Assembly (NCBI GenBank): GCA_028280565.1
Contig: JANQLQ010000272.1
Coordinates: 1 to 56,316, forward strand
DNA length: 56,316 nt
Reading direction: 5' to 3'
Source: Fulvivirga sp.
GTDB taxonomy: Bacteria; Bacteroidota; Bacteroidia; Cytophagales; Cyclobacteriaceae
In this document: positions 15,501 to 56,316 of the stretch, in pieces
Layout: each line of letters starts with the position of its first letter
Position numbering within the stretch: position 1 is the first letter of the stretch
Translations under genes and position numbers: made by a program
The notes under the pieces: model-generated
Database searches by the model: none
The model's input: the letters and a program-made list of their open reading frames with translations, nothing else
What the model was told of the DNA's origin: nothing

Positions 15501-18500
15501 CAATGGCTTGATGAGATGTACGCTGGGGGCAAATACAGGCCCAAACCTTTGAACATCAAGGCAAAAAGCTTACAAGCAAGAGCATATTCTGGTTTTTGTG
15601 CGGAAGGGGTATCGGATTGTGGTACCGGGCTGGCCCGGTTTTTAGGCCCCGGGAAGGCCATAACGAATGATGTGGATTGTACGGTGTGTGATCCGGGATG
15701 CGGGGAATTGGCAGGGCTCGCTGCTTTTGATCCCAGGACGGATCGAGGACGAAGGTTGATCGACCCTAACCGGGAGTTCAATTTAGCTCCCCAGTTTGAT
15801 TGCGAATCAAATACAGACTTTGAACTTCTCTATGCCAGGGGCCTTGGATCAAAAATGATGAAAGAGGGCCTTTACGTTTATCCCATACCCTACTTCGCCA
15901 ATAAATACCAACAAACTTTTGAGGTCAGCGATATAACCGATCTAACCGGCCAGGGGCTAGTGATAGGAAGTAAATATACCGACCAACTGGCAAAACCGGT
16001 CCATGTTCTATTGGCGGATGAAAGTGGCAATAGTCCATTGCAGATCACGGACAGGGATGCCCTTGGCGCCCCTATATTATTTGGATTTAACGGGGGAGGT
16101 CAATTCACCCTGGACCAGTTGGCCAACACGCCAACAGGAGTTTATGCACACGTTTACGAGCGGGACCCGTCGCAGCCCGGGGTACCGTTATCCTTTTTAT
16201 GGAAGAAGCCGTTACACGTCATTCCACCGGAACACACTACTCAAAACTCGGTTTACAAGGTGGATGACGATGAGTACCCCGTATGGTTGGATAACAATCA
16301 AATCTCACTTCCGGCAGGTCATCCCGCGAATCAATTTGTCAATTTTGATTATAACTTCCTGGACCCGGTGTTCGAGCCAGGCAATATAAAGGGTACCATT
16401 CCGCCCACTGCCAGCGACCCGGGCTGGAACCCGGAGGGGAGCTGGAATGCTCAAAGCTGGGTAGCTGTCTACTACGAAATACTACACCGCTATTTCGCAG
16501 ACCTGGATGACCCTTATGATGTGGATAACTGGAAAACGAATACGATCTATGCCCACTCTTGTTATACCATCAAAGATGCGCAGGGCAACCGGTATTTTAG
16601 TGATTATGATGGCCATGGCTATTACATAAGCCAATCGCACCCGCAGCCTTTGCAGCGAGGAAATAGATGGTACCCTTCCTGGGTCTTGCAAGATGAGAAT
16701 GTAGAGCCGATCGATATCGACCGGCTCGCTAATGACGATCGTGAATATGCCAGGGAATTGCTCAACCACTTCCTGATGAAGGATTTCCCATGGAAGGCAG
16801 CGTCCGATATCCCTGCTGATCAGCTGGAAGTTTACAATAACCTGAAGTCATACTACACCAATTCGGGGGTAGATGTCACGATCCCTCTTGGTCAGCTCCC
16901 CATCACCGGGGGTGTCGACCCTGACCTGGTCAAGACCAGGCCCTGGGATGTGGTGCAACACGGGCCACAAGACGAATGGTATGAAAGGAACAATTATGGG
17001 ATCGCGGAGGTGAATATGGGGCCACAGGGAAATTTCACACTGTGGGTACCCGAACTCCGTGACGATGGCCAAAAGGTGGTGCGCGTCTATTCTATGGACC
17101 CCGGGAGGTCTACCTACAACCAGGAGCGTTTGTATGAATGTCTCAACCTAAACTTCCAAAGCTATTTTCCTCAAGCCTTTTATGCGAGATCATTCCTGCA
17201 TCCATTGGGCACCAGTATCATGAAGACAGCTTTTGCATCCAGGGGTGGCTTCGATCGGTTTCCCTGTCATTACTGGAGTGATGGAGGGGGCGATGGTTGC
17301 CAGTTTACCTGGAATATAAGCGGGATCGTCGATGGAGCATCTTCCGAGCCGAACCAACAATTAAAGCAATACGACCTGGCCTTTCAAGCGCTACGGCTGG
17401 ACCCTTCTCTTCCGTTTGAAACGCTCCCGGACCCGGACATAGAGATAGATGACCCGATTTCCTGTGAAGTGCCCGTAAACGAATGCTATTCCTTGGAAGA
17501 ATTGAGGTCTTTATCGCGGGAGGAACTCTTTGACATCAATTTTGCCTTAGCGGACCTGTATGATAATGATGACGGTATTCCCCCCGGCAGTGACCAGCAA
17601 AAGCGACTGGCCTATACCCTGGATGAATTCCTGGGCCAGGAATTTGACCCATCGATGAACAATACGGCCAATACCGAGTGTATTCCAGGGTACTATTCCC
17701 GGTACGTGATCGGGGAAAATCCCGACCTGCCAGATGATGACCCGGACAAATACATGATCCTCATAACGCACCCTTATTCGGAAGAAGATGTAACAGTACG
17801 CATTGACGGTACCCCTGAAGAGGAGTTTATACGTGATAAAGCAGAAAACTATTTCTTCTTGTTAAGCGCCATGTGCTACGAGGAGGTAGATGACGGGTGG
17901 ATCTCCATGGCAGAATGGCACAAACTCGATTCTACACTATCAGGGCCCGGTTTTTCGATACGCATGACGAATAGAAACTTTGGTGGCCTGGGAAGGATAA
18001 CAGCAGGAGGCGAGTTCCTCGATGAAGCCTTACAGGCCGCTGACTATCTTGAGCTCAAAACCCCTGTGATCCAGGCAGCCGGGTATAGCATCTCGGGGAT
18101 CTACGGCCCCAATTTCCCGACCCCGGGCTATGACGGTAACAGTACGCTTACGCTTCGTCAAATGAAAGCCGGTCTATGGGATTTTGACGCAGATCCTTTT
18201 GACCAGCTTCAGAGGAAACCCTATTATAACCAAGCACCTTATGAAAGGGTGCGTTCGGAGGTCACCTTCGATGCCAACGGGCTGATCCTGGACGAGGAAG
18301 GACAACCCCTGGACTTCGGTGAGATTACCTCTTACTTGCAGGATTGCATGGGACGTCTTTATATTGCCCGGGCAGGCTACATCTATCATTCCGAATTACT
18401 TGGGGGAGCCGCGCTAGCTTCGGCCGGTGACATCAAAGTGGAAGAAGGCCAGCCTGTTTTTATAGATGTTCGTAGTGGTCATTACGAACCCCCTTGTGAA

Positions 18501-21500
18501 TTTCTTGATCTGCCCCTGTCACTTTTAGCGTCTAACGGGCATTCCTTCGAAGAAAAGTATCCGCGACCGCCACGAGGTATATGCCAATCCTGGTACTGTA
18601 ATACTATTTTACTGGAAGCGAACTTTGATGGTATCCCTGTTACTTTCGGACCGGGAGAAAACGACCCTGACACACTGGTCAGAAGGATGTTTATTCCGGG
18701 AGAAGTCGTAGTGACGGCCGGGGAAAGGCCGGCAGGTAGCCAGGTCAAACTGGCCATATTCGGGCCAGGTCAAAGGAGAGAGCCAAATGAACTTTTCTAT
18801 CAACCTGACCCCCTCAATACGACGAGGTACGTCCTGTCACCCGGTCAGGCCCTAAATGCCGGGGACTCTGTGCTTTACAATATGATAAATCTAAGTGTGA
18901 AAGTGATCTATGGAGGCACCAAGGATGGAACGGTGGAAATGAAAATCGAAAACTGCCCGGCTGATGAGGCCAATGAATGCTATACATTGGATGAATTGAG
19001 GTCTTTTTCAAGGGAAGAGCTTGCCGGGATCGACAGTGACCTGGGAGCGCTATATGATATCGATGACGGCATACCCCCTGGTGCCCGGCAAAAACGACTT
19101 GCTTATACATTGGAGGAATTTTTGGCACTGGAATTTGACCCTACAGGGTTCAACACCGCCAATACGGAATGTATATCCGGGTATTACTCGAGGTATTTCA
19201 TTGGCCGGAACCCGGACCTTCCTGCCGGGGATCCCAATAGGGAAATGATCCTGGTCACCCATCCTTATACGGAAGCGGATGCAACCCTGGCGGAAGAAGA
19301 TGGGGCAATGCAAGACAAGACACGGTACTATGGAGACATACTGAGGGCTATGTGCTATGAGAAAGTGGATGATGGGTGGATCTCGTTGGCCGAGTGGTAC
19401 AAGCTAGATCCCGATCAGCCTGTTGCTGAACTTTCTTTGCGGATGACTAATCATAACTTTAGCAATAAAGGGAGGATCACCCCTCAAGGGGAGTACCTTG
19501 TTACGAATACTGATGCTTATAATTTTCTTACCTCCCAAGCCCAGCAAATCGCCGAGGCGGGGTACGGGATCTCCGAGCTTTATGGGCCAAACTTCCCAAC
19601 TCCGGGTTATGAAGGGAATAGTTCTTACAGCCTTAGAGCGATGGTACCGCGTTACTGGGAGTTGGATGCTGACCCCAATTTCGCCAACGTAGTAGACTAT
19701 TATCAATCTCCTTCCAGGAGAGCGCCTTTCGAGGTGACTTTGGGTAATAATGGACTCATACGGGATGAAAACGGGGACATTGTAGATGTACCGATGGTCG
19801 ATTATGTCATGGACTGCATGGGTCGGTTGTACATCGCCAAGAGTTCAATATCTTTTCATTCGCAATATTTGGGAGGAGGAGCTGTTGCTTCGGCAGGAAG
19901 GGTCAGCGTCCGGGGGGGTAAACCCACCTTTATAGACTTATTCAGCGGCCACTACAAGCCACCTTCATGTGAGTTTTTAGAGCAGCCTATTGAACTGCTG
20001 GGGAATGCCGGCACACCGTTTGAAGAGGCCTATCTTACCGTGCGGGAAGGTGCAGAGGGAGAGGTATGCCAGGCCTGGTACTGCAATACCATTTCCACCC
20101 GGGCAAATTTTGACGGGGCTCCTAAGTCATTCGGCCCGAGAGACGACCCCAGGGCCCTGTACAGGAAAATGATGGTGCCCGGGAAGGTGAATGTGATCAA
20201 TGGAACTAGGCCGGCCGGTAGCCAGGTAATGCTTACCCTTCGGGGGGGAGGAAATGTCAATGAGTTGGTATACGAACCGGCTCCGGCGGACCCGGCAGCA
20301 TATACATTGGCGCCGGGGCAGGACTTTAACCATGGAGATACGGCTCTTTACAAAAACTTTGTATTCAAAGTGATCGATGGCGGGTCTGATCTTGGAATAG
20401 TAGAAGCCACGATCGAAAACTGCCCGGCAGAACCCGACCCAGGTTGTTATACACTTCGGCAGTTAAGGTCACTATCCAGGGACGAACTTTCACGGATCGA
20501 CAGTGACCTGGTAGAATTGTATGACAATGACGATGGTGTAGCTGTCGTTGATCAGCAAAAACGGTTAGCCTATACGCTGGAAGAGTTTTTGTTACAAGAG
20601 TTTGAACCTTCGAATTTTAATACCGCTAATACCGAATGTATACCCGGCTATTATTCGCGGTATGCCATTGGCGAAAACCCTGACCTCCCGGAAAGTGATC
20701 CCGATCGTTTGATCATACTTATTTCACATCCTTACACGGAAGAAGATGTGGCGGTGCGCAACGATGGACTTCCGGGGCAACGATTCGTCCAGGACAAAAC
20801 GGACAATTACTTTGCCCTACTGGAGGCGATGTGTTACGAACCCATGGATTCGGGGTGGGTGTCGCTGGCACAATGGTATAAACTTGATCCTGATCTGCCC
20901 GAGCCGGGATTTGCGTTCAGGATGACCAATAGTAATTTTTACGAGACCGGGAGGATCACTACGGCAGGCGAGTACCTGGCGCAAGGTACATATGCCGATA
21001 ATTACCTCGTACAGAAAACCCAGGCCATAGGATCTTTTGGTTATGATATTTCGAAAATTTTAGGACCCAACTTCCCAACCCCGGGATACGAGGCCAATGA
21101 CCAGTATACGTTAAAACAAATGTTGACAGGGTTCTGGACGCTGGATGCCGAGCTTATCGGGGATTCTCCCTACATTCAAGCCCCCTTCGATAGGGAATTA
21201 CTGGAAGTCACCTTCAGCGATGAAGGCCTAGTGCTAGATGAAAATGGGGAACCTGTCAATGTAGATAATGTATCTTATGCCCAAGATTGTATGGGGCGTT
21301 TTTACATCGCCAAAGATGAGCTATTCAGTCATTCTCAATTCACCGGGGGAGGCGCCTTGGCTTCAGCAGGACAGATAATTGTTGAAGAAGGTGAACCAAT
21401 TTTTGTTGATCTATTCAGTGGGCATTACGAACATGCCTGCGAATTTTTAGACGTTCCTTTGGCCCTGTTAGTATCCCAGGGATATACCTTTGAAGAAAAG

Positions 21501-23663
21501 TACCCGGAACCTCTCGAGGAGGTTTGCCAAGCATGGCACTGTAATACGATTTCAATTGAAGCCAGCTTTGATGGAACTCCTGGTAACTTTGGTCCCGGAA
21601 GCAGCCCCATTGCGCCTTACAGGAGAATGTTTGTGCCTGAAAGGGTAAGTGTTACCGGTGGAGTAAGACCTCCCGGCAGCCAAGTGAGGCTGACGACGTT
21701 TGGGTGGGAAATGGTATATGAATTGTTCTATGAGCCTGTCCCCGGAGACCCTACGGCATACAGCTTAGCGCCCGGGCAGTGGTTAAATGTTGGGGACACG
21801 GTTATTTTTTCTAGCCTTTCGCTGGTCGTGCTTAATGGTGGCACTGGGGCAGGCGCAGTGACGGTGGTAATCGAAAACTGCCCGACTGATCCCGGCCCAG
21901 GTTGTTATACGCTTGACCAACTCCGATCATTTTCCAGGGATCAACTTATGCAGGTCAACAGTAGCTTGGGAGAGCTCTATGATAATGATGACACCGAACC
22001 CATTAGTGCCGAACAAAAGCGATTGGCCTATACATTTGACGAATTCCTGGGGTTGACATTTGATCCCTCCGGGTTCAATACTGCCAACACCGAGTGTATA
22101 GAGGGATATTATTCCCGTTATGTAATAGGGCAGAACCTGGACCTGCCGCAAAGTGATCCTAACCATTTGATCATCCTCATTACCCAACCTTATACAGAAG
22201 AAGATGTGACCGTTAGAAATGACGGCTCGCCCGGAGAGCGATTCATAAAAAATAAAGAAAGCCACTTCCCTGGCCTGTTGGCAGCAATGTGCTACGACTA
22301 CGTAGAAGACGGGTGGATCTCGCTGGCGGACTGGTATAAACTTGATCCCAGCCTGCCGGCTAATGAGCTTTCTTTCAGGATAACCAGTGACAACTTTGGT
22401 AGTGAAGGCCGGATCACGACAGGAGCGGAATACCTCGACCCCATTTCGTATGCCGATGATTACCTTGAGCGAAACACATCAATGGTCACATCGGCGGGGT
22501 ATGAAATTGCCCGGATCCTGGGGCCTAATTTCCCCACACCCGGGTATGATGGGGACAGCCCCTATGCACTTTATGGAATGGATGAGACCTTTTGGAGACT
22601 GGATGTTGATTTTTTGGACAATGTGTATTACCGACAGGCGCCATACGACAGGGAATTGTTACAGGTGACATTTGATGCAAACGGGTTGATCCTGGATGAA
22701 AGGCAGGAGCCTGTCGATACTACTGTAATGCCCTATGCCCTAGATTGTATGGGGCGCTTGTATATAGCAAAGAATGACAAGGCTGTCCATTCTGAATTTA
22801 TCGGTGGCGCGGCTGTGGCTTCGGCAGGAGAGATAAAGGTAGTACAGGGTCGCCCGATTTTTATCGATGTATTCAGCGGGCACTATGAACCGCCATGTGA
22901 GGCATTGGATGAGCCTCTTTCACTTCTTGTATCCAATGGGGCATCTTTTGAAGAAAAGTATCCTGTGCCTACTAATGGTGTCTGCCAGATTTGGCATTGC
23001 AATACGATCGTTGTTGAAGCTGGTTTCGATGGTGTCCCGGGTGTTTTTTTACCGGAACCCATGGCTATTGAACCCAGTCGTAAATTAAGGAGGGCGTTTG
23101 TGCCGGGACAGGTGAATATTACAAACGGGACACGTGCAGATGGAAGCCAGGTGAAGCTGTCTATGCTGAGATATTCCGCATTTGACACCACTATAAACGA
23201 GCTTATATACACCCCCGCCGTAGGCGATCCACAGGGATATATGCTTGCATTGGGACAAGATTTCGGTGCCGGAGACCCGGTCTTGTTCCTAGAGCTTCGC
23301 TTGGAAGTGCTCAATGGGGGTACTTCTCTGGGCACCGTACAGCTAAGCGTTGAGAACTGCCCGGGTAGTAGTATTCCCGCAAACTCACCATCTAGTGTTG
23401 CCAATAACGAAGTGCGTATATTCCCTAACCCTGTGCCGGGTATGATGAGCATTGAATTCCCCTCACACCAGGTAGACGGCGTGGGGCAGGTAGAGGTTAC
23501 CCTTATGAATACCGAGGGTGAAATCGTCCTTGATCAAAGGTTTCAGAAACCGGGCCACGGACCGATCCAAATACCTACCACTCATCTTATACCGGGCCTG
23601 TATATGGCCAGGGTCTCATGGGGATCGAACCAGTTCATGCAAAAAATAATGGTAGTCAAATGA
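12564..23663 (+). CDS. 3699-aa T9SS cargo: lipase-like domain plus four ~490-aa tandem repeats
   Basis: A signal peptide (MKKIAILKR, hydrophobic core, cut near 'KGQGA') is followed by an alpha/beta-hydrolase-like domain at ~185-340. It has the oxyanion 'FIHG' and the strand 'VRIVGHGVGAQLA', but residue 308 is Gly where the catalytic Ser should be. Two diverged copies of another module follow, anchored by 'GLYVYPMP' (~666) and 'GLYVYPIP' (~1102). Four tandem repeats begin at residues 1639, 2137, 2627 and 3113, each opening with 'CYTLxxLRSxSRxEL' and 'DNDDG'. Each also contains 'DCMGRxYIA', 'HSxxxGGxAxASAG' and 'FIDxxSGHY', and ends at an 'ENCP' motif. A type-A T9SS sorting domain follows (~3615-3699, 'RIFPNPVPG', ending 'QKIMVVK'). 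It should therefore be exported across the outer membrane and anchored or released. Substrate or target is unknown. The 20-nt gap upstream and 7-nt gap downstream place it in the operon. Confidence 0.9.
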   Translation: MKKIAILKRCRRISIPGFTYAAVLAMLTVVFPCTDTKGQGAVDPNNTDGERVGLLQKCCEMDVKFFKTDGVTEIQRANTNEFFTIKASVEGDNCRAKWFYQNDCDESFERIEDEGSDRPAFKHLAGKWGPVIYRSRVECNEDYDCADGVVFPVLDWGIWFYGDEGRLKKFRKGGDFDGYYDPAKPSVLFIHGLRQGAASNDLRQDFVFSRLEGNPQTGQNEIVDENLPALWRSKGFNFVVFNWTQFADESSLRLVEDKIWEADRVRWRDPLGRTISENFPSGRNIGDLIYESFLNWNPGSSVRIVGHGVGAQLAVELANRLSAANRTGKIQRLVLLNPYWSRESKPYGLGPDVTLPGQAITRTARRSLRDMTSLYKKNVLIETYRNLYFGKNENLLYHGDDNDSIKAITAYADLKPAWQQRVLNIPPELNNLLQANDKRLHEAIYLWYLRSIDFPILPSLVDSERPKDENGRRYPLVEEGCNWQNRVAIGLTARTAFQASLNLQRSKKFSRQITGFGTIATEDDSLVLEHFCSCIIDTARNTRSRGLVTTHDVAFREYAKCNDRVLLVRNAAAGTEGHTAALLTTSPDASRTESTPTYLPNPYLDLPALSAQEDLGCGASNGLVSIHPDSRKARLMVDREIEHAPGLETITREYAHFVFNVLLPRGLYVYPMPRFEDERWYQTYKDMLAHKKIEGNWKIFKDDCYVVKDTLGNILFNDYRLHGIYDEDGSAITGEEDVLNGINTIINRQTSSHGFNPFGNDGDIRPDIRDNPGIQLLQNGIHDQWEDRNSWIVAGGEMGPQANVTVYWPNGTVSGIYVDSIAQQKRFYQCLDMDWESLYPDNPVDETNLYAARDGGVEETSLNIGGYPALHKRPVDPGRPTVGQRNYWEGPDQGGYYNFKAQQVLQDRARFSCSEVIGGGSVFLKATYTITGQTPGITDLEEQIAADIGLHPHHFVRYAKFASDYDIIVGIRNSNQAAAQWLDEMYAGGKYRPKPLNIKAKSLQARAYSGFCAEGVSDCGTGLARFLGPGKAITNDVDCTVCDPGCGELAGLAAFDPRTDRGRRLIDPNREFNLAPQFDCESNTDFELLYARGLGSKMMKEGLYVYPIPYFANKYQQTFEVSDITDLTGQGLVIGSKYTDQLAKPVHVLLADESGNSPLQITDRDALGAPILFGFNGGGQFTLDQLANTPTGVYAHVYERDPSQPGVPLSFLWKKPLHVIPPEHTTQNSVYKVDDDEYPVWLDNNQISLPAGHPANQFVNFDYNFLDPVFEPGNIKGTIPPTASDPGWNPEGSWNAQSWVAVYYEILHRYFADLDDPYDVDNWKTNTIYAHSCYTIKDAQGNRYFSDYDGHGYYISQSHPQPLQRGNRWYPSWVLQDENVEPIDIDRLANDDREYARELLNHFLMKDFPWKAASDIPADQLEVYNNLKSYYTNSGVDVTIPLGQLPITGGVDPDLVKTRPWDVVQHGPQDEWYERNNYGIAEVNMGPQGNFTLWVPELRDDGQKVVRVYSMDPGRSTYNQERLYECLNLNFQSYFPQAFYARSFLHPLGTSIMKTAFASRGGFDRFPCHYWSDGGGDGCQFTWNISGIVDGASSEPNQQLKQYDLAFQALRLDPSLPFETLPDPDIEIDDPISCEVPVNECYSLEELRSLSREELFDINFALADLYDNDDGIPPGSDQQKRLAYTLDEFLGQEFDPSMNNTANTECIPGYYSRYVIGENPDLPDDDPDKYMILITHPYSEEDVTVRIDGTPEEEFIRDKAENYFFLLSAMCYEEVDDGWISMAEWHKLDSTLSGPGFSIRMTNRNFGGLGRITAGGEFLDEALQAADYLELKTPVIQAAGYSISGIYGPNFPTPGYDGNSTLTLRQMKAGLWDFDADPFDQLQRKPYYNQAPYERVRSEVTFDANGLILDEEGQPLDFGEITSYLQDCMGRLYIARAGYIYHSELLGGAALASAGDIKVEEGQPVFIDVRSGHYEPPCEFLDLPLSLLASNGHSFEEKYPRPPRGICQSWYCNTILLEANFDGIPVTFGPGENDPDTLVRRMFIPGEVVVTAGERPAGSQVKLAIFGPGQRREPNELFYQPDPLNTTRYVLSPGQALNAGDSVLYNMINLSVKVIYGGTKDGTVEMKIENCPADEANECYTLDELRSFSREELAGIDSDLGALYDIDDGIPPGARQKRLAYTLEEFLALEFDPTGFNTANTECISGYYSRYFIGRNPDLPAGDPNREMILVTHPYTEADATLAEEDGAMQDKTRYYGDILRAMCYEKVDDGWISLAEWYKLDPDQPVAELSLRMTNHNFSNKGRITPQGEYLVTNTDAYNFLTSQAQQIAEAGYGISELYGPNFPTPGYEGNSSYSLRAMVPRYWELDADPNFANVVDYYQSPSRRAPFEVTLGNNGLIRDENGDIVDVPMVDYVMDCMGRLYIAKSSISFHSQYLGGGAVASAGRVSVRGGKPTFIDLFSGHYKPPSCEFLEQPIELLGNAGTPFEEAYLTVREGAEGEVCQAWYCNTISTRANFDGAPKSFGPRDDPRALYRKMMVPGKVNVINGTRPAGSQVMLTLRGGGNVNELVYEPAPADPAAYTLAPGQDFNHGDTALYKNFVFKVIDGGSDLGIVEATIENCPAEPDPGCYTLRQLRSLSRDELSRIDSDLVELYDNDDGVAVVDQQKRLAYTLEEFLLQEFEPSNFNTANTECIPGYYSRYAIGENPDLPESDPDRLIILISHPYTEEDVAVRNDGLPGQRFVQDKTDNYFALLEAMCYEPMDSGWVSLAQWYKLDPDLPEPGFAFRMTNSNFYETGRITTAGEYLAQGTYADNYLVQKTQAIGSFGYDISKILGPNFPTPGYEANDQYTLKQMLTGFWTLDAELIGDSPYIQAPFDRELLEVTFSDEGLVLDENGEPVNVDNVSYAQDCMGRFYIAKDELFSHSQFTGGGALASAGQIIVEEGEPIFVDLFSGHYEHACEFLDVPLALLVSQGYTFEEKYPEPLEEVCQAWHCNTISIEASFDGTPGNFGPGSSPIAPYRRMFVPERVSVTGGVRPPGSQVRLTTFGWEMVYELFYEPVPGDPTAYSLAPGQWLNVGDTVIFSSLSLVVLNGGTGAGAVTVVIENCPTDPGPGCYTLDQLRSFSRDQLMQVNSSLGELYDNDDTEPISAEQKRLAYTFDEFLGLTFDPSGFNTANTECIEGYYSRYVIGQNLDLPQSDPNHLIILITQPYTEEDVTVRNDGSPGERFIKNKESHFPGLLAAMCYDYVEDGWISLADWYKLDPSLPANELSFRITSDNFGSEGRITTGAEYLDPISYADDYLERNTSMVTSAGYEIARILGPNFPTPGYDGDSPYALYGMDETFWRLDVDFLDNVYYRQAPYDRELLQVTFDANGLILDERQEPVDTTVMPYALDCMGRLYIAKNDKAVHSEFIGGAAVASAGEIKVVQGRPIFIDVFSGHYEPPCEALDEPLSLLVSNGASFEEKYPVPTNGVCQIWHCNTIVVEAGFDGVPGVFLPEPMAIEPSRKLRRAFVPGQVNITNGTRADGSQVKLSMLRYSAFDTTINELIYTPAVGDPQGYMLALGQDFGAGDPVLFLELRLEVLNGGTSLGTVQLSVENCPGSSIPANSPSSVANNEVRIFPNPVPGMMSIEFPSHQVDGVGQVEVTLMNTEGEIVLDQRFQKPGHGPIQIPTTHLIPGLYMARVSWGSNQFMQKIMVVK

Positions 23664-46765: not shown

Positions 46766-47017
46766 AACTATAACCTGATAATCTTATAAAAACTAATTTT
46801 AATGATGAAATACTTTAATAATTAGTTTATATCATCTTTGCTCGCTTTACGGAAACACTTTGTTAATGTATCGATTCAGAAGATTTTTATAAATCTGATT
46901 ATCGTTTTTATTTTTAATTTTATAGCCCGGTTAAAATTATGGATTAGTATCTATGAAAAATCATCATGTTAGTTTTTTTCATGGATGAACACTTAGAAAT
47001 GGAAAATAAGAGCTTTG

Positions 47018-47878
47018 ATGGATTTGAAATTGATAGGGGAGTTAAGGGAATTTATTATTCCTTTAACCAAAAAGGAGAAGGAACAACTTGAGGCGAATAT
47101 TCTTGCGAATGGATGTAGAGATCCGCTGACGGTTTGGGAAAAAAAGTATGAGTTAGTCTTGATTGATGGTCATCACAGGTATGACATTTGTACCAAGCAC
47201 AAAATCAACTTTAAGATCACCAAACTTAATTTCAAAAACATAGAGGAGGTTAAGCTTTGGATGATCAACAATCAATTGGGTAGAAGAAACCTGACCCAAG
47301 ACCAAATGAGTTACTATCGTGGCTTGAAATACCTAAAAAACAAAAAGATAAAAGGAGGGTATGAATACGTTGAATCGAAGGGTAAAAATGAGCCGTCTAC
47401 CAGTGAAATGCTAAGTAGGGAATTTAAGGTAAGTGAGAGTACAGTTAAACGGGATGCAAAGTATGCGATGGGTATGCAAGTTATTGGGCGTTCAAACCCG
47501 GTTCTCAAAATAAAAATATTGGCAGGTGAGGTGAAGGTAAAAAAATCTGATATTCAACTACTCTCATCTCATGCCGATGATAAAAGAACAACCATAAAAA
47601 ACGAGGCAGATATTTATAACAAAGCCCAGGTAATACGAAAAAGAGCTTTGGATGAGGTTGAAGAGCGGCTGGACAAACTGCATGACGAGAGGGTTTCAAA
47701 AGCCAAAGAGGCGCTACAGGAAAAGGAACCCTTATTTTTGGATAAGGATGACCGGCTGATCAAACTTAAGGGGAGGATTATGTCGGCTATTAATACCGCT
47801 ATCAAGGAAAAGGATGTGAGCGCCATAGAGCAGTTAAAAGAACTTATTGGGTTACTTGAGCAGGAATTGTTCGGGTAG
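47018..47878 (+). CDS. ParB/Srx-domain DNA-binding protein, orphan
   Basis: 286 aa from the ATG at 47018 (a TTG one codon earlier is possible). The N-terminal ~95 residues are a ParB-type nucleotide-binding fold: 'LTKKEKEQLEANILANGCRD' and 'ELVLIDGHHRYDICTKH', where the 'G-H-H-R-Y' box is the CTP/phosphate-binding signature. A helix-turn-helix stretch follows ('SEMLSREFKVSESTVKRDAKYA', ~125-150) and a long charged coiled coil reaches the C-terminus. No parA partner and no parS-like site was seen, so this is not a partition locus. Orphan ParB-like proteins also act as regulators or plasmid/phage adaptors. Here it sits upstream of the polyketide synthase. Confidence 0.8.
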   Translation: MDLKLIGELREFIIPLTKKEKEQLEANILANGCRDPLTVWEKKYELVLIDGHHRYDICTKHKINFKITKLNFKNIEEVKLWMINNQLGRRNLTQDQMSYYRGLKYLKNKKIKGGYEYVESKGKNEPSTSEMLSREFKVSESTVKRDAKYAMGMQVIGRSNPVLKIKILAGEVKVKKSDIQLLSSHADDKRTTIKNEADIYNKAQVIRKRALDEVEERLDKLHDERVSKAKEALQEKEPLFLDKDDRLIKLKGRIMSAINTAIKEKDVSAIEQLKELIGLLEQELFG

Positions 47879-48576: not shown

Positions 48577-49122
48577 ATGTCGCGAAATGAAAACATTGAT
48601 AACAAGTACAGAGCCGGGGGTTTTCAGTCTATACAAGCTTGTAAACAGATTTATTATAAAGCTTTCGTAAAACAGCTCGTTAACTGGAATCATCTTTATC
48701 AAAGGAAAGTAATCAATATTATTAGATTTTCACTCACCATGAGTGACTTCAATCAAGGGCCTGCTGAAAGTATTTACTGGAAACTATTCCAGAGACGTAA
48801 ACCTTTTAGAACCACTTTTTCTTTAAAAGGAAATGTAGTCGTACAAAAAATAAACGATCACGGTACTTGTGGATACCAGTTTTACCTCTTTGAACCCAGG
48901 TCAGGCAAGGATTTTGTTCGCATGCTGTGTTTGGTTAATCCAAGGAATAAAAAAGTATTATCAGGCTTGGAAGAAGGTCCCTGGTGCAAAGAATCATTTT
49001 ATATTATAGGAAAAGGAATGCCTTTTCAGGTTTATGATCAATTGTATCATATCTCTGCTGGTCCCAAAAATTCAACTGAAGAATTTTACCGGATATCAGC
49101 TCAAAATTATAGTTGTTCTTAA
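48577..49122 (+). CDS. Protein of unknown function upstream of polyketide synthase
   Basis: 181 aa, no recognised family, no signal peptide and no membrane segment. It is moderately basic with many aromatic residues, and its C-terminal half ('GYQFYLFEPRSGKDFVRML', 'GPWCKESFYIIGKGMPFQVY') alternates like a beta domain. Codon use is AT-rich like the synthase, and its stop lies 73 nt before the synthase GTG in the same direction, so it is probably part of the same transcript. It may be cluster-specific; no function is proposed. Confidence 0.7.
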   Translation: MSRNENIDNKYRAGGFQSIQACKQIYYKAFVKQLVNWNHLYQRKVINIIRFSLTMSDFNQGPAESIYWKLFQRRKPFRTTFSLKGNVVVQKINDHGTCGYQFYLFEPRSGKDFVRMLCLVNPRNKKVLSGLEEGPWCKESFYIIGKGMPFQVYDQLYHISAGPKNSTEEFYRISAQNYSCS

Positions 49123-49195
49123 CTCAAAGATATTGTATTACATATTGCAAATGGATTTCGTCTAATTTCCATTTTCCAAAATCTATATAACAAGA

Positions 49196-52100
49196 GTGAA
49201 CTATTCAATTCGTCCTTTAAAAGAAGTTGACATTCAAGATTTAAATCAAATGAGCAGCGCTGTCAGTACGGCTCATGTGTGGTCTTTTAAAGAAATTCAA
49301 AACATGAAGGAAAGTAATTTTCAAGATATGTATGTTTTGGAATTGGATGGTCAAATACATGGTTTTTCCCAAGTAGAGCAAATCAACCCTCAAATTACTT
49401 CCCTTGATAGTAAGACTGATAATTCCAGGAAAAATGTTGAACTGCAATCTGTAGTAATAGTTCATATTCTTAAAGGCAACAATAAACTTGACTTGTCAAA
49501 GGAGTTGATAAATTTCATAGCAAAAGTCTTCATAGAAAGGGATGTTTATTTTTCTATTTTATTGCCTATTGACGAATTACTAAGTTACAGTTTGAATCAG
49601 TTTTCACCAGGGTCCAATGGTCTTTATGAACATCCGTTTATTCGCGAAATTATCTCATCACTACCTCAAGATAATGATATAAAAATTCTGGGTATTTTAG
49701 AAAATAGCAATTCCGACTCGAAAAGAATGTGGAGTAAGGGCGTCCTCGTAGTGGGGGGCTTATTTGATGATTCGATGAATCCATCAAATAAACCCGAAAC
49801 TTCACACTGCTTATCCTTAGCGAAAGATTTGGAAAATACATTTTGCTCAAGAAAATATTCACTTGGTATGCCTCAAATGCTATATGGAGGGATATATGAA
49901 AACTGGATGCTTAAAGAATTTGGAGATATACATTGGTCAATGATAGCCGATGGACTGAAGGTAAATACAAATGATTTGATTGATAGTGATGGAAATAGAC
50001 TTTATGCCAGTTTTGTGCGTATGAGTTGGAGTTCTAATGCAGGTCTTTTTGTCTTTGATGAGAATGATGAAATTCATATAAGATCTATTTTGTCTCGCTA
50101 CGGAAATAAAATGTTCTTTAGCAATCATGAGCTTAAAAGCGATAACAAGAACATCCAGGCCTCATTAATGTCTGTTTTTTCCGTTAGAAGTTTAGAAGAT
50201 AATAAGACGTTGAAAAAGGGTGTTCCATTGGTGACTGTTAACAAGAATTTGAGAACACATTCTAAATTGCCGGAGTTTGCCAAAGAATATATTAAAATTA
50301 AATCAGAGTTGCTAAGTGATGAAGAAAAGCTCAACTTAAGTTTGAAATTATTTGGAGCTGATTTTAAGCTATATTCAGCCCCTCTGTTTACCTGCAATTA
50401 TGAAATTGATCCATATGATGATATCAACGGTGTTGGGTTGCTATATTTTGCTTCATTTCCAAAAATAAGTGATAAATGTGAACGTCTATATGTCAACAAA
50501 TTCATAAAAAAAACTCAAAATGCCGATGAGTGGGCTGAAAATAGCACTTGCTTAGCTCGTGACATATTTTATTTTGGTAATGCCAACCTGGAAGATATAT
50601 TAGAATACCAACTGGAAACTTTCAGCTTTAAGGAACCAAATAAAATTAAGTTAACCTCATCCCTGTACCGCAAGTCAGATAAACAGTTAATAGCCAAAGT
50701 ATTTACAATAAAGGAATTGAAGGAATCGATAATTTTATCGTTCATCAAAGACAATTACAATCAAACGCAAGGCATATTAAGTGAAGTTTCTTCATTTCAA
50801 CAATCCAGGGATAACGATGAATCTTTTATAAACGAAGAGCCATTGTCAAAAATTGGAGTAGATAATAACTTAAGTAGTTTATCAAAAGGGGGATTAAACA
50901 AGGTTTTAACCACCTTTTTTTTAAAAATGTTTGATTTAGATAATATTGACGAGAACACTGATTTGAATTCCTTAGGGATAGAGTCTATTGTTTTTATAGA
51001 GCTAAGTGAACATCTGAAAAGTTCGTACAGAATAAATAGTAATCCTAGTCGGTTTTTTGGATTATCTAATATTGACGAAATTTCGTCATATCTTTTGGCT
51101 AATAATAATATTACAGGTGAGGAATCTAGGGAGCCCTCGGAAAAAAATCTACATGAAGACGAAGATAGCCATTTAGTAGGTGGTGATATTGCTATAATTG
51201 GTAAAGCGCTTAGAATTCCAGGTGCTAATACTGAAGAAGAGTTTTGGCATACGTTAGCCAATGGCAAGTCTGCAATAAGTCAATTACCTAAAAAGAGATT
51301 CCTGTGGCCGGATTGGGTTGATCTTGGGACGATGCATCATGGCCTGAATAAAGGAGGCTTTATAGACGATATAGATTGTTTTGACGCGGCTTTTTTCAAA
51401 ATTTCACCACGAGAGGCCAGGTTAATTGACCCTCAGCAGCGGATATTACTGGAACTAACGTGGCATCTCCTGGAAGATGCAGGGTATAAACCTTCTGAGT
51501 TTAAAAAATCAAATACAGGAGTGTATATTGGAGCAAGTGGCAGCGACTACGAACTGTTGCTCAATTCTCAGGACGATCAAAATAGATTAACAGGAACTGG
51601 CACTTCTTTGGCTCTAATGGCCAATAGATTGTCCTTTTTTTATGATTTAGAAGGGCCCAGTCTTCTAGTGGACACAGCTTGCTCGTCCTCCCTAGTTGCT
51701 ATACATGAAGCAGTCACTGCATTGAAAAGCAAACGTTGCAAGCAGGCGATTGTCGGAGGAATTAATATCATTTGTCATCCATTTAAGAGTTTGTCATACT
51801 ACCAATCAAATATGTTAAGTAGAGATGGTAAATGTAAAACTTTTGATCATGATGCTAATGGATATGTCAGGGGAGAAGGGGCGGTAATGATATTGTTAAA
51901 ACCACTTAAAGATGCAATATCAGATGGCGACTATATACATGGTGTAATTAAAGCCACAGGTGTTAATCATGGAGGCCAATCAATTGGGCTCACGGTACCA
52001 AATTCTTCACGACAATCTGCTTTGATAGAAGATGTTTATAGGCGAGCTCGAATTGACGTCAATAATGTTAGTTACATTGAGGCACATGGAACCGGTACAA

Positions 52101-55100
52101 GCCTGGGAGATCCAATTGAAGTAACAGGACTGTCCCTTGCTTTTGAAAAGCTTAGAGATGGTAGCCATAAGGATATTAGGAACAATTGGTGTGGACTTGG
52201 GGCCGTCAAGTCAAATATTGGACATTTAGAAGCTGCTTCAGGTATCGTTGGTTTGATGAAAGTTCTTCTTGCCATTAAACACCGACAAATCCCCCCAACT
52301 ATTAATTTCAATAAGCTTAACGAACATATAGAGTTAAAAGGAACACCGTTTTATATTAATGATAAACTTAATGAGTGGTTGCCTGCACAAAGAGGGAAGC
52401 CATTAATGGCAGGAGTAAGTAGTTTTGGTATCGGTGGAACCAATTCACACGTCGTTGTTGAGGAGTATAAAAACAACCCTGGAAATTACCAGGTTAGTGA
52501 TTCGCCCGCGTTGATCGTACTTTCCGCCAGGGATAAGGAAGCTTTGAATAAAGTTGCAACTAGTCTACTCGACTATTTGATTAATAGAAAAGATGCAGCT
52601 TTAGCAAACATAGCCTATTCACTACAAGTGGGAAGAGAGTCCATGCAGGAAAGAATTGTTATAATAGTTCATAACCTTAAAGAATTAAGAGAACATTTAA
52701 AATACTTTATTAATGGGGAGAGCTCTAATTTTCTTTCAAATAACATAAAGAAGAGCAATGAAGGGGTAAGTAATTCGAATTTTGCTTTTAAGAACACCTG
52801 TTCGGAAACGAGTCAAATTGAGCAAATGGCCATTCTCTGGCTTAAAGGCGAGGAGGTCGACTGGCAAGTCTTATATCCGGAAGGCAAACCAATTAAAATC
52901 AAATTGCCAAATTATCCATTTAGCAAAGCCAGGCATTGGATTTCTGAAGACTTGAATGCCGATGATACATTAAAAACGAAAGAGAGCTTAGAGTATGTTG
53001 CTCCTAAGATTTCTCTATCTGATGTTGAATCTACTTCGAATTCGGAAATTCAAACGAATACCACGATAAAGTTATCACCGGCAAATAGATTCGATATTAG
53101 GACTACGAACGCTGCCGGAAAAGATAAAAACTATTCAACATTGGTCAATAATATGGAACGAGTAAGGCAGTACGATTTAAATCAAGTATTTCAAAAGTTG
53201 TTAATGTTATTAGCAGAATCTTTATACATTGATGAAGAACAAATTGATTCAGAAGAAAAGTTTGTAGACCTTGGATTAGATTCAATTATTGGTGTTGAGC
53301 TGGTCAAGAAAATAAATGAACACTTTTCTATTGAACTAGCCGCCACGGATCTCTATAGCTATTCTACACTGACCATTCTAGCTGAGCATGTGTGTGATCA
53401 ACTTCCGCTTGTCGAGAAGGCGCCAGACGATGAAGGTCAGTCATTTAAGAGCGAGTTATCCAATTGTTCGAACCTCCAGTTTAATGCCGTAAAAACTAAA
53501 GAAAAACCGGAAAGCAATCAATTCATATACCAGGAAACGGATATTGCAATTATTGGTTTATCATGTAGAATGCCGGGTTCGTCTGATTCTGAAGCATTCT
53601 GGGAAAATATTAAGGAGGGTAGAAATGCAATCAGGGAAGTTTCCGAAGACAGATGGGAACGTTCTATCTATTTTGACACTGATCCAAAGGCAAAGGGTAA
53701 ATCGTATAGCAAATGGATGGGCACATTGGAGGATACTGAAATGTTCGATCCTTTGTTTTTTAATATTTCTCCTAAAGAAGCAGAATTGATGGACCCACAG
53801 CAAAGGATTTTCCTGGAAGAAAGCTGGAAGGCAATTGAGGATGCGGGATATAATTCTAATCAGCTTTCTTCACGAAAATGTGGTGTTTTTATCGGCGTGG
53901 CGCACAGCGACTATGGTCATGATATACTAAAAAATAAATCGGAACTTGACTCTTATGCGCTCACCGGAAATAATGACTCAATATTAAGTGCACGAATTTC
54001 TTATATTTTAGATCTTAAAGGACCATGTGTTTCAGTTAATACGGCCTGTTCAAGTTCTTTAGTAGCTATTTCCCTAGCATGTGATAGTTTGTTGATGGAA
54101 AATAGTGAAATAGCCCTGGCTGGTGGTGTTTGTGTTTTGACGACCCCGGATATGCATGTTATGACTAGCAAAGCAGGTATGTTAAGTAAAGATGGTCTAT
54201 GTCATACGTTTGATCAACAAGCCAATGGTTTTGTCCCTGCTGAAGGTGTTGGAGTTCTGGTACTAAAAAAACTGAAGGATGCAGAAAAAGATGGTGATCA
54301 GATATATGGTATCGTAAAAGGGTGGGGAGTTAACCAGGATGGTGCTACAAATGGTATAACAGCACCCAATGAAAGGGCTCAATTAGAATTAGAAAAGCAC
54401 GTTTATAGTAAGTTTAATATTAACCCTGGGACCATTGGCTATGTAGAAGCACACGGTACGGGCACTAAACTTGGGGATCCCATTGAAGTGAAAGCCTTAA
54501 AGTCTTCGTTTAGACATTTCACTGAAAAAAGCAATTACTGCAGTTTAGGTAGTGTAAAAGCCAATATTGGCCACACCCTGGCGTCGGCGGGTGTTGCAGG
54601 CGTAATAAAATTGATTTTTAGTCTAAAAAATCGCCAAATACCGCCCCTGTGTAATTACCATCAGCTTAATGAACACATTGATTTAAAGAATAGTCCCTTT
54701 TATATTAATACAGAATTACTTGATTGGGAAAATGAAACGGAAGGTTTGCGAAGAGGTGCTGTAAGTAGTTTCGGGTTCAGTGGAACCAACGCCCATGTTG
54801 TGCTAGAAGAATATATTGACAACCGGGAGGAGAAGCATAGTTGGGAAAGCCCTGTTGTAGTTCCGATCTCTGCACGAAATACAGAAAGACTAAAAACACT
54901 GGTATCAAATCTGCATAAGTATCTTGTTAAACACCCTAAGGTCAACTATGCTGATGTAGCCTATGTATTACAAGTAGGTAGAGAACCTATGGAAGAGCGC
55001 CTGGCTTTTGTAGCTTCGGATGGCAAAGACTTATTGTCCAAGTTGAATTCTTTTTTGTTGGGTGAAAGGGACGATTTGTTCACAGGAAATGCAAGAGACA

Positions 55101-56316
55101 GTAAGTCAAATTTTCATCTAACAGGGAAAGCAGGAGAGGCTTATCTTAAAAGTGCTATTCAAAATAAAGAAATGGGCAGTTTAGCACAACTTTGGGTAAA
55201 TGGAATTGATATAGATTGGAGTTTAATTTACGATGAGCAAAAGCCAAATAAAATTAGTTTACCTACTTATCCATTTGTGAAGGAAGCTTATTGGTTTGAC
55301 AAAGAAGAATATGAAACAGAGGTCTATAAAAAAGAAAGGATACATCCATTACTTCATATCAATAATTCAAATTTAAATAGGGTAACTTATTCAAGTTCCT
55401 TTACGGGTGAAGAAACCTTCTTAAAAGACCATGTTGTAAAAAAAGAAAGAGTTCTTCCGGGTGTCGCATATATCGAATTGCTTCATGAAGCTGGAGAAAG
55501 AGGTACTGGGCAAAAAGTATTTGGTTTAAGAAATATGTTTTGGCTCAATCCAATAAAGATTGGCCGATCGAAGGAAGAAATTAATGTTAATCTTTCTGCT
55601 AAACAGGGAGATATTGATTTCGAGGTGACTGACAATCGCAATACAGAGTTTTGTAAGGGAACTATTATTTTTGATAAACAAGAAACCCCTCCAGCTTATG
55701 ATTTGAGCGATTTAAGATCGCAATACCATCGTTCTGTTCCAGGAGATGAAATTTATGAGTCTTTTGGAAAGGTGGGTTTGGAACTTGGACATAGCTACCA
55801 GGGCGTTGAAAGGCTTTATCTGAATGATACTTCCGCACTATCCAAAATATGTCTCGATCCGATTGAAGGGTTTAAGTATTCACCTGGAATTATCGACAGT
55901 GCATTGCAGGCATATATGGGTTTAAACTTATCTACAGGTAAGAAGGATTTGTCCTTACCTTACTACGTTAAAGAAATTTTACTCTACAAAGATCTATCTC
56001 AGATATCCGAATTTTGGGGATATGCTAGGAAGAGTAAAAACAATAAAGAGAATAGCAAGGTAGTAAGTTATGACATAGATCTTTTGAATGAGAATGGGGA
56101 AGTCCTGTTAAGTTTTAAGGATTTTGTCACACTGCCGATTAATGCAGGCAATTCGGCAAGTCCAGCTGGGTTGATGACCTCTTCCCTTCAATTTTATGAT
56201 CGGGCGTGGCAACCTCGCGAGGGTTTAATTTCGGGGTCTTCTGGGGGTCGCCAGGTTGTCCTTTTGGCAGGGGGTTCGTTGAGTTTGTCAGGCCGTTTGG
56301 GCGAAGAATTAGCCTT
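49196..56316 (+). CDS. trans-AT polyketide synthase with LnmK-like loading module (3' end outside window)
   Basis: The frame is open from 49166 to the right edge. GTG 49196 is preferred because 'YSIRPLKEVDIQDL' matches a GNAT start; ATG 49250 is the alternative. Order by residue from GTG: degenerate GNAT-like (~1-200); double hot-dog like LnmK/Pnap_2097 (~220-500, 'LGMPQMLYGGIYENWMLKEF', 'CNYEIDPYDDINGVGLLYF', 'ARDIFYFGN'); ACP1 with S597 in 'LGIESIVF'; KS1 (~664-1095; C829 in 'DTACSSSL', H964 in 'EAHGTGT', H1010); linker with 'LPNYPFSKARHW' and no acyltransferase; ACP2 with S1363 in 'LGLDSIIG'; KS2 (~1449-1880; C1618, H1753, H1793); linker 'LPTYPF'; DH (~2050-2320; H2079, D2234); beginning of a ketoreductase. 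Extender units must come from a separate acyltransferase. The loading module probably attaches and trims an acyl starter on ACP1. Product unknown. Confidence 0.93.
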   Translation, partial: MNYSIRPLKEVDIQDLNQMSSAVSTAHVWSFKEIQNMKESNFQDMYVLELDGQIHGFSQVEQINPQITSLDSKTDNSRKNVELQSVVIVHILKGNNKLDLSKELINFIAKVFIERDVYFSILLPIDELLSYSLNQFSPGSNGLYEHPFIREIISSLPQDNDIKILGILENSNSDSKRMWSKGVLVVGGLFDDSMNPSNKPETSHCLSLAKDLENTFCSRKYSLGMPQMLYGGIYENWMLKEFGDIHWSMIADGLKVNTNDLIDSDGNRLYASFVRMSWSSNAGLFVFDENDEIHIRSILSRYGNKMFFSNHELKSDNKNIQASLMSVFSVRSLEDNKTLKKGVPLVTVNKNLRTHSKLPEFAKEYIKIKSELLSDEEKLNLSLKLFGADFKLYSAPLFTCNYEIDPYDDINGVGLLYFASFPKISDKCERLYVNKFIKKTQNADEWAENSTCLARDIFYFGNANLEDILEYQLETFSFKEPNKIKLTSSLYRKSDKQLIAKVFTIKELKESIILSFIKDNYNQTQGILSEVSSFQQSRDNDESFINEEPLSKIGVDNNLSSLSKGGLNKVLTTFFLKMFDLDNIDENTDLNSLGIESIVFIELSEHLKSSYRINSNPSRFFGLSNIDEISSYLLANNNITGEESREPSEKNLHEDEDSHLVGGDIAIIGKALRIPGANTEEEFWHTLANGKSAISQLPKKRFLWPDWVDLGTMHHGLNKGGFIDDIDCFDAAFFKISPREARLIDPQQRILLELTWHLLEDAGYKPSEFKKSNTGVYIGASGSDYELLLNSQDDQNRLTGTGTSLALMANRLSFFYDLEGPSLLVDTACSSSLVAIHEAVTALKSKRCKQAIVGGINIICHPFKSLSYYQSNMLSRDGKCKTFDHDANGYVRGEGAVMILLKPLKDAISDGDYIHGVIKATGVNHGGQSIGLTVPNSSRQSALIEDVYRRARIDVNNVSYIEAHGTGTSLGDPIEVTGLSLAFEKLRDGSHKDIRNNWCGLGAVKSNIGHLEAASGIVGLMKVLLAIKHRQIPPTINFNKLNEHIELKGTPFYINDKLNEWLPAQRGKPLMAGVSSFGIGGTNSHVVVEEYKNNPGNYQVSDSPALIVLSARDKEALNKVATSLLDYLINRKDAALANIAYSLQVGRESMQERIVIIVHNLKELREHLKYFINGESSNFLSNNIKKSNEGVSNSNFAFKNTCSETSQIEQMAILWLKGEEVDWQVLYPEGKPIKIKLPNYPFSKARHWISEDLNADDTLKTKESLEYVAPKISLSDVESTSNSEIQTNTTIKLSPANRFDIRTTNAAGKDKNYSTLVNNMERVRQYDLNQVFQKLLMLLAESLYIDEEQIDSEEKFVDLGLDSIIGVELVKKINEHFSIELAATDLYSYSTLTILAEHVCDQLPLVEKAPDDEGQSFKSELSNCSNLQFNAVKTKEKPESNQFIYQETDIAIIGLSCRMPGSSDSEAFWENIKEGRNAIREVSEDRWERSIYFDTDPKAKGKSYSKWMGTLEDTEMFDPLFFNISPKEAELMDPQQRIFLEESWKAIEDAGYNSNQLSSRKCGVFIGVAHSDYGHDILKNKSELDSYALTGNNDSILSARISYILDLKGPCVSVNTACSSSLVAISLACDSLLMENSEIALAGGVCVLTTPDMHVMTSKAGMLSKDGLCHTFDQQANGFVPAEGVGVLVLKKLKDAEKDGDQIYGIVKGWGVNQDGATNGITAPNERAQLELEKHVYSKFNINPGTIGYVEAHGTGTKLGDPIEVKALKSSFRHFTEKSNYCSLGSVKANIGHTLASAGVAGVIKLIFSLKNRQIPPLCNYHQLNEHIDLKNSPFYINTELLDWENETEGLRRGAVSSFGFSGTNAHVVLEEYIDNREEKHSWESPVVVPISARNTERLKTLVSNLHKYLVKHPKVNYADVAYVLQVGREPMEERLAFVASDGKDLLSKLNSFLLGERDDLFTGNARDSKSNFHLTGKAGEAYLKSAIQNKEMGSLAQLWVNGIDIDWSLIYDEQKPNKISLPTYPFVKEAYWFDKEEYETEVYKKERIHPLLHINNSNLNRVTYSSSFTGEETFLKDHVVKKERVLPGVAYIELLHEAGERGTGQKVFGLRNMFWLNPIKIGRSKEEINVNLSAKQGDIDFEVTDNRNTEFCKGTIIFDKQETPPAYDLSDLRSQYHRSVPGDEIYESFGKVGLELGHSYQGVERLYLNDTSALSKICLDPIEGFKYSPGIIDSALQAYMGLNLSTGKKDLSLPYYVKEILLYKDLSQISEFWGYARKSKNNKENSKVVSYDIDLLNENGEVLLSFKDFVTLPINAGNSASPAGLMTSSLQFYDRAWQPREGLISGSSGGRQVVLLAGGSLSLSGRLGEELA

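Follow-up and report, generated by a model that had tools for sequence, protein, structure and literature searches.

The polyketide synthase (PKS) gene at the end of the window (the whole stretch of DNA analysed, i.e., one whole contig of 56,316 nt from a 9.05 Mb genome) probably encodes a trans-AT PKS loading protein in which an LnmK-type domain loads and decarboxylates the starter, and in which the N-terminal domain is a decayed GNAT that is probably dead (a probability of about 0.7, judged from sequence). The whole looks like a variant type of loading module, i.e., an LnmK-type domain with a decayed GNAT in front. An unusual starter unit had been suggested by a sequence-only reading of this DNA; acetyl and propionyl are ordinary starters, and what is out of the ordinary is the enzyme predicted to produce them.

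The PKS ORF begins with a GTG start at 49196, downstream of an in-frame stop at 49163, and runs without a stop as far as the contig end. It encodes an N-terminal domain of about 190 residues, an LnmK-type domain, ACP, KS, a RhiE-like linker, ACP, KS, a linker and DH, in that order:

49199-49765, + strand: degenerate loading-type (CurA/GphF-like) GNAT domain, aa 2-190, assigned on moderate evidence (Foldseek of the single-sequence model, global profile alignment, 5-6 of 29 invariant residues)
49856-50707, + strand: LnmK-type bifunctional acyltransferase/decarboxylase by homology, double hot-dog, aa 221-504 (TIGR04098, Foldseek to 4hzn)
50003-50005, + strand: codon of Tyr270, in the column of LnmK Tyr62 (profile alignment)
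50933-51094, + strand: loading ACP (PP-binding), aa 580-633, motif GIESIV (PF00550, E 3.2e-6)
51188-52510, + strand: first ketosynthase, KS1, boundaries approximate (motifs DTACSS, EAHGTGT and SNIGH; PF02801 at 51938-52309; tblastn to other KSs)
52517-52717, + strand: RhiE-like KS linker after KS1 (PF22336)
53192-53392, + strand: ACP of module 1 (PF00550)
53537-54658, + strand: second ketosynthase, KS2 (PF00109/PF02801)
54866-55060, + strand: RhiE-like KS linker after KS2 (PF22336)
55343-56146, + strand: dehydratase domain of module 2 (PF21089, PF14765); the PKS runs on past the contig end

The GTG start, the domain scans and the presence of the quoted sequence words bear out the sequence-only reading that the ORF from 49196 on is a starter module with GNAT-like, LnmK and ACP parts. 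Of the span given there, 49196-50990, the start stands, but the end cuts through the ACP.

As in trans-AT loading modules, the ACP is followed by a KS, and a PF22336 linker follows both KSs; the Pfam scan found no cis-AT (PF00698) in the PKS ORF, which is incomplete at the contig end. KS1 carries DTACSS, EAHGTGT and SNIGH, and it is therefore a condensing KS rather than a KSQ. KS1 and KS2 are the only PF02801 matches on the contig, with none in the 49 kb before the ORF, and thus no KS-bearing gene was found upstream of it. Since the LnmK-type domain is fused in front of the first ACP and KS1, and the contig showed no further KS upstream, the simplest reading is that the starter is made on this first ACP. 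Malonyl-CoA or methylmalonyl-CoA would provide the acyl group, which the LnmK-type domain would pass to the neighbouring ACP; the removal of CO2 by the same domain would give acetyl-ACP or propionyl-ACP, respectively, and KS1 would accept either as the starter. A methylmalonyl-CoA mutase is encoded in the genome, so that supply does not decide between the two substrates. The remainder of the synthase was not found in the assembly, which holds just two other PF02801 matches, one in a 431-aa and one in a 419-aa ORF. Immediately 5′ of the PKS gene lies a 181-aa orphan ORF (48577-49122) with no Pfam or NCBIfam match, and an orphan protein at 47015-47878, without a Pfam match, is ParB-like by eye (LIDGHHRYD). 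Three ORFs at the other end of the window (1-23663) are giant; the first carries SprB/PKD repeats, and the third lay outside the scan. The G+C content there is about 50%, whereas the region around the PKS (44-56 kb) has 35-38%.

The LnmK-type part is an LnmK family member in sequence and fold, as the sequence-only reading had held. It scores 162.1 bits with TIGR04098 (cut-off 100), covering positions 2-270 of the 270 in the model, and 133.2 bits with TIGR04099 (cut-off 125); the LnmK family model is listed by NCBI as type ‘domain’, the name thus being assigned by homology, and TIGR04098 also matches one E. coli protein below the cut-off. An AlphaFold2 model built with 21 sequences has a pLDDT of about 90 across most of the domain. 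In a Foldseek search with this model, ranks 1-7 were all LnmK entries (best 4hzn, E 1.1e-19), with a TMt to LnmK of 0.73-0.74, indicating the double hot-dog fold. The sequence identity to LnmK itself is 16-18%; phmmer detects LnmK over the second half only, and a profile of 23 sequences reaches LnmK in the PDB at E 6.7e-14.

Alignment of the catalytic tyrosine, which the sequence-only reading had proposed as a check, places Tyr270 in the column of the LnmK tyrosine (Phe in 4hzp, counted as residue 62 in 6x7l), in a segment that is weak taken alone (i-Evalue 39). This column holds Tyr in 36/38 aligned rows, the window included, Cys in one relative (L035) and Leu in a PKS of Streptomyces globosus. 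The title of a 2020 study refers to substrate-assisted catalysis, and the role of Tyr62 has reportedly been revised. Because of this revision, and because the LnmK domain of the S. globosus PKS has Leu at this position, the kept Tyr proves little. The core of the LnmK-type domain is intact, and catalysis by it is predicted.

The N-terminal domain reads as coding. Its frame is stop-free throughout, which none of 200,000 Markov simulations was over 193 codons, and when the six frames were scored by the codon usage of the PKS further downstream, only that of the extension came out positive. A start at Met194, as in the relatives that lack a GNAT, is disfavoured because the frame before Met194 reads as coding. 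The first 190 residues matched no Pfam or NCBIfam family, and a PDB sequence search with the N-terminus alone gave nothing useful. By tblastn, the N-terminus had no match in 72,556 plasmid records; in 295 genomes of the family it had 40 with E up to 1, its own included (the best other at E 0.0037), and in 10 genomes with LnmK-headed PKSs it had 5 with E up to 1 (best 0.043).

The fold comparison points to the starter GNATs. The single-sequence model has a low-confidence pLDDT of 45, and models of this kind can give meaningless Foldseek matches. However, in a search of 350,542 PDB chains, ranks 1-2 were the GNATL of CurA (2ree/2ref), rank 4 was SxtA (7uci) and rank 5 was GphF (6mfc), with E from 3.9e-5 to 9.5e-4 for these matches; rank 3 was the acetyltransferase SbzI. 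The low-confidence model is still counted here because starter GNATs, out of all GNATs, agree at the top.

Starter GNATs for comparison were obtained via the KS1 matches, in PKSs of Nostoc UHCC 0926 and Eleftheria terrae, where the GNAT sits between an upstream region and a loading ACP-KS; the Nostoc GNAT matches CurA, 7uci and GphF in the PDB. Global alignment of the N-terminal domain to a profile of six starter GNATs gave z 4.9-5.8 over three gap settings, with 0/6000 shuffles as high at each, and none of 1108 overlapping other segments of the window reached its score. A seven-row profile gave z 4.6-4.9 (0/4000 shuffles as high). In a rotation test, 6/189 rotations scored as high as the true order, the best being a one-residue shift. 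Local methods (HMM, BLASTP and hhalign) against starter GNATs were all weak, hhalign giving a probability of 0.4 on a percent scale; the local HMM score was beaten by 1/2000 shuffles. A second local HMM (gn.hmm), for which 11 of 30 added loci had been dropped for stops and at least one (L130) was taken from the wrong strand, is flawed, and no conclusion rests on its result (beaten by 3/5000 shuffles). A free-end alignment test of the domain gave no signal, with 1643/3000 shuffles and 4361/5665 real segments as high. The fold of the low-confidence model and the global profile alignment are thus moderate evidence that the N-terminal domain is a degenerate loading-type GNAT. A four-row starter-GNAT profile matched 116/395 genomes of the phylum at an E-value threshold of 0.01, the ORFs concerned being about 500-650 aa long in most cases; two similar plasmid matches are annotated as carbon-nitrogen hydrolase, and the genome of the window gave no match.

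The N-terminus is related to the loading GNATs but departs from their residue pattern. Four MAFFT alignments were made with a set of seven starter GNATs, among them 7uci, and in these it keeps 5-6 of the 29 residues invariant across the set; the description as a degenerate starter GNAT agrees with the fold ranks and the global profile alignment, and the GNAT motif is not intact. The sequence-only reading that the usual acetyl-CoA loop is lacking also holds in the alignments made, where five residues are missing from the loop that follows strand 4 and Ser101 stands in place of its invariant glycine. The columns compared as catalytic are those of Trp249, Thr355, His389 and Arg404 in CurA. The His and Arg columns hold Pro157 and Asn172 in all four alignments, the Thr column is a gap in two and Ser132 in two, and the Trp column is Ser24 in all four, although in the hhalign alignment it is Trp29 that falls on the conserved Trp. 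There is no Thr between residues 75 and 190, and between residues 91 and 190 His146 is the sole His. The C-terminal half of the GNAT aligns unsurely, so that shifted registers with Ser120 or His146 in catalytic roles are possible. The degeneracy is plain in these alignments, and the domain is probably catalytically dead.

The sequence-only reading had treated the module as a single oddity, which it is not. A contig scan gave 120 LnmK relatives, and the analysis went on with the best 80. In 14 of these best 80 a PKS begins with LnmK, all from Bacteroidota (L013-L024, L026 and L038, from Aquimarina, Flavobacterium, Bizionia, Cyclobacteriaceae, Saprospiraceae and others) and each beginning 3-40 residues past the upstream stop; one Streptomyces PKS has the same arrangement. 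No GNAT was found in any of the 14, nor seen in any of the best 80 of 120. At least 150 residues precede LnmK in five of these 80, which look by eye like Arg-rich shadow frames; the starter-GNAT HMM found nothing significant in these five stretches, and the one scanned with Pfam showed no family. Among the relatives seen, a GNAT retained before LnmK is thus peculiar to the window. A tree was built from the window, two plasmid loci and 35 of the 80 kept loci; in it, the PKS-type LnmK domains of Bacteroidota, that of the window included, form one clade of 15 (support 98/95). TIGR04098 matched in 3/196 genomes of the same family and in 3/395 genomes of the phylum, one of the latter below the cut-off, the window's own genome being included in both counts.

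The surroundings of LnmK in the relatives add to this. In L008-L011, an ESI-type ACP motif and then a KS follow LnmK, as would fit a loading role. In L010, a gene encoding KS-KR-ACP-TE and a sulfotransferase gene precede that of LnmK, which looks as if it comes after the end of an assembly line and so also fits the start of a new one; a PF00698 acyltransferase is encoded close by. A motif scan found no KS upstream of the 14 loci; however, it missed a KS shown by domain scan in the L010/L016 region and is thus not counted as evidence. A sulfotransferase adjoins one LnmK-headed PKS and Cupin_8 proteins adjoin two (L010:11302-12420, L010:4098-5204, L008:17728-18798). Ten more relatives of Bacteroidota/Chlorobiota type (L025, L028-L034, L036, L037) are 363-403 aa long with 87-126 residues before LnmK; this extra part is an ACP by domain scan in L033 (the same locus as L012) and by motif in L025, and is ACP-like by eye in others. 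L039-L092 are mostly from Pseudomonadota and, by ORF length, stand-alone LnmK. A discrete LnmK on an Azospirillum argentinense plasmid (L115:8031-8918) is flanked by large genes annotated as SDR family oxidoreductase, and one or more of these match a PKS KS; genes nearby include one for a phosphopantetheine-binding protein and one related to enoyl-CoA hydratase.

In the plasmid-borne PKS of S. globosus (L114:7995-14069), LnmK occupies aa 5-264 (TIGR04098, 208 bits) and a KS begins at about aa 413. LnmK thus heads a PKS as in the window, but there is no GNAT, and Leu takes the place of the tyrosine. The cluster looks kirromycin-like and is labelled so because of its neighbours facT, ccrA and a PPTase. 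The passages available from two papers on kirromycin and aurodox (PMC5818483 and PMC9361827) do not mention an LnmK domain; those from PMC9361827 mention two additional predicted dehydratase domains. No description of an LnmK-type loading module was found in the literature searched, which was mostly open-access and taken without supplements.

LnmK of leinamycin (4hzn-4hzp, 6x7l-6x7p) shares with the window the TIGR04098 family, the double hot-dog fold and the Tyr62 column, but it comes from a separate gene that belongs to a beta-alkylation set, whereas the domain of the window is fused before an ACP-KS and behind a GNAT. The characterised LnmK is described as part of beta-alkylation in passages of PMC9396626, which favours an alternative in which the LnmK-ACP of the window is an in-cis donor for beta-branching, providing acyl-ACP for an HMGS cassette rather than a chain starter. 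Five relatives (L017, L019, L020, L026 and L038, from Flavobacterium, Aquimarina and a Cyclobacteriaceae MAG) have 3-4 successive ACP motifs between KS1 and KS2 in a motif scan; such motifs can mark beta-branching and are suggestive of it on the first extension. However, the LnmK domain stands at the N-terminus and is followed by an ACP of its own that immediately precedes KS1, no further ketosynthase was found 5′ on the contig, and no HMGS-type family appeared among the scanned ORFs (the ORF at 12564-23663 lay outside the scan, and the cluster is incomplete). A donor role is thus considered unlikely.

Starter GNATs are described as decarboxylative primers in passages of PMC10127204 and PMC8302727, and GNAT decarboxylation in CurA and GphF in those of PMC10127204. 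The loading modules of CurA and GphF share with the window the GNAT fold, and there too the starter GNAT precedes a loading ACP and KS; in the window, the conserved residues are mostly lost and a second decarboxylase family lies between GNAT and ACP. In addition, L121 and L122 have a region before the GNAT, whereas the window has none. The GNAT could still decarboxylate malonyl-ACP with LnmK only loading, or both could act in tandem. This would fit with the open, coding-like frame of the domain, with a possible re-use of His146 and Ser120, and with Trp29 if it is the conserved Trp. The few invariant positions kept, the shortened loop, the lack of the domain in 14/14 PKS-type relatives and the molecule name of LnmK in the PDB, bifunctional methylmalonyl-CoA:ACP acyltransferase/decarboxylase, which implies that LnmK is bifunctional alone, all speak against this, and about one chance in ten is given to the GNAT still decarboxylating in either way. 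Less probable again is that both N-terminal domains are inert, with a discrete trans-AT charging the ACP and another enzyme decarboxylating; the acyltransferase gene in the related cluster L010 would fit, but KS1 has the condensing Cys motif rather than that of a KSQ, and the LnmK core is strongly conserved. A parallel to the fusion in the window may be seen in MadA (YiiD), the E. coli malonyl-ACP decarboxylase, which likewise has a GNAT and a hot-dog in one chain, but with a single hot-dog of Pfam_09500, a role in fatty acid synthesis and no ACP/KS fusion; the decarboxylase of MadA is in the hot-dog part, and the GNAT is not required for it, according to passages of PMC8666670.

The preferred reading is thus that the intact LnmK-type domain probably does the same job as the worn-out GNAT, as judged from their sequences. 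The N-terminal domain would descend from the type of GNAT-like decarboxylase used for priming in many trans-AT synthases, either as a former decarboxylase of this synthase or as a later acquisition, and may be retained as a scaffold, an ACP-docking piece or a relic. Because all 14 PKS-type relatives lack a GNAT, a single gain in the lineage of the window followed by decay would be the shortest history; repeated GNAT loss is a possible alternative. It looks as if one starter machine has been caught replacing another, a worn-out starter domain standing beside an intact domain of a different fold.

Passages of PMC8302727 give two on-line decarboxylation routes, i.e., KSQ in cis-AT and GNAT-like domains in trans-AT synthases. 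The balance tips slightly towards LnmK-type domains being a third self-contained decarboxylative route of PKS priming, one without a separate starter acyltransferase that extends from Bacteroidota into Streptomyces, with the window as an intermediate of the switch in which the decayed GNAT still stands before its replacement. The prediction of polyketide structures from genomes hinges on reading the loading module. If LnmK-type domains do load, the starts would become predictable for the PKS of the window, the 14 Bacteroidota loci and the kirromycin-like Streptomyces PKS, and the fusion of an ACP with its own bifunctional acyltransferase/decarboxylase would give engineers a compact part for priming. 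In addition, the window offers a testable case of domain replacement within an assembly line.
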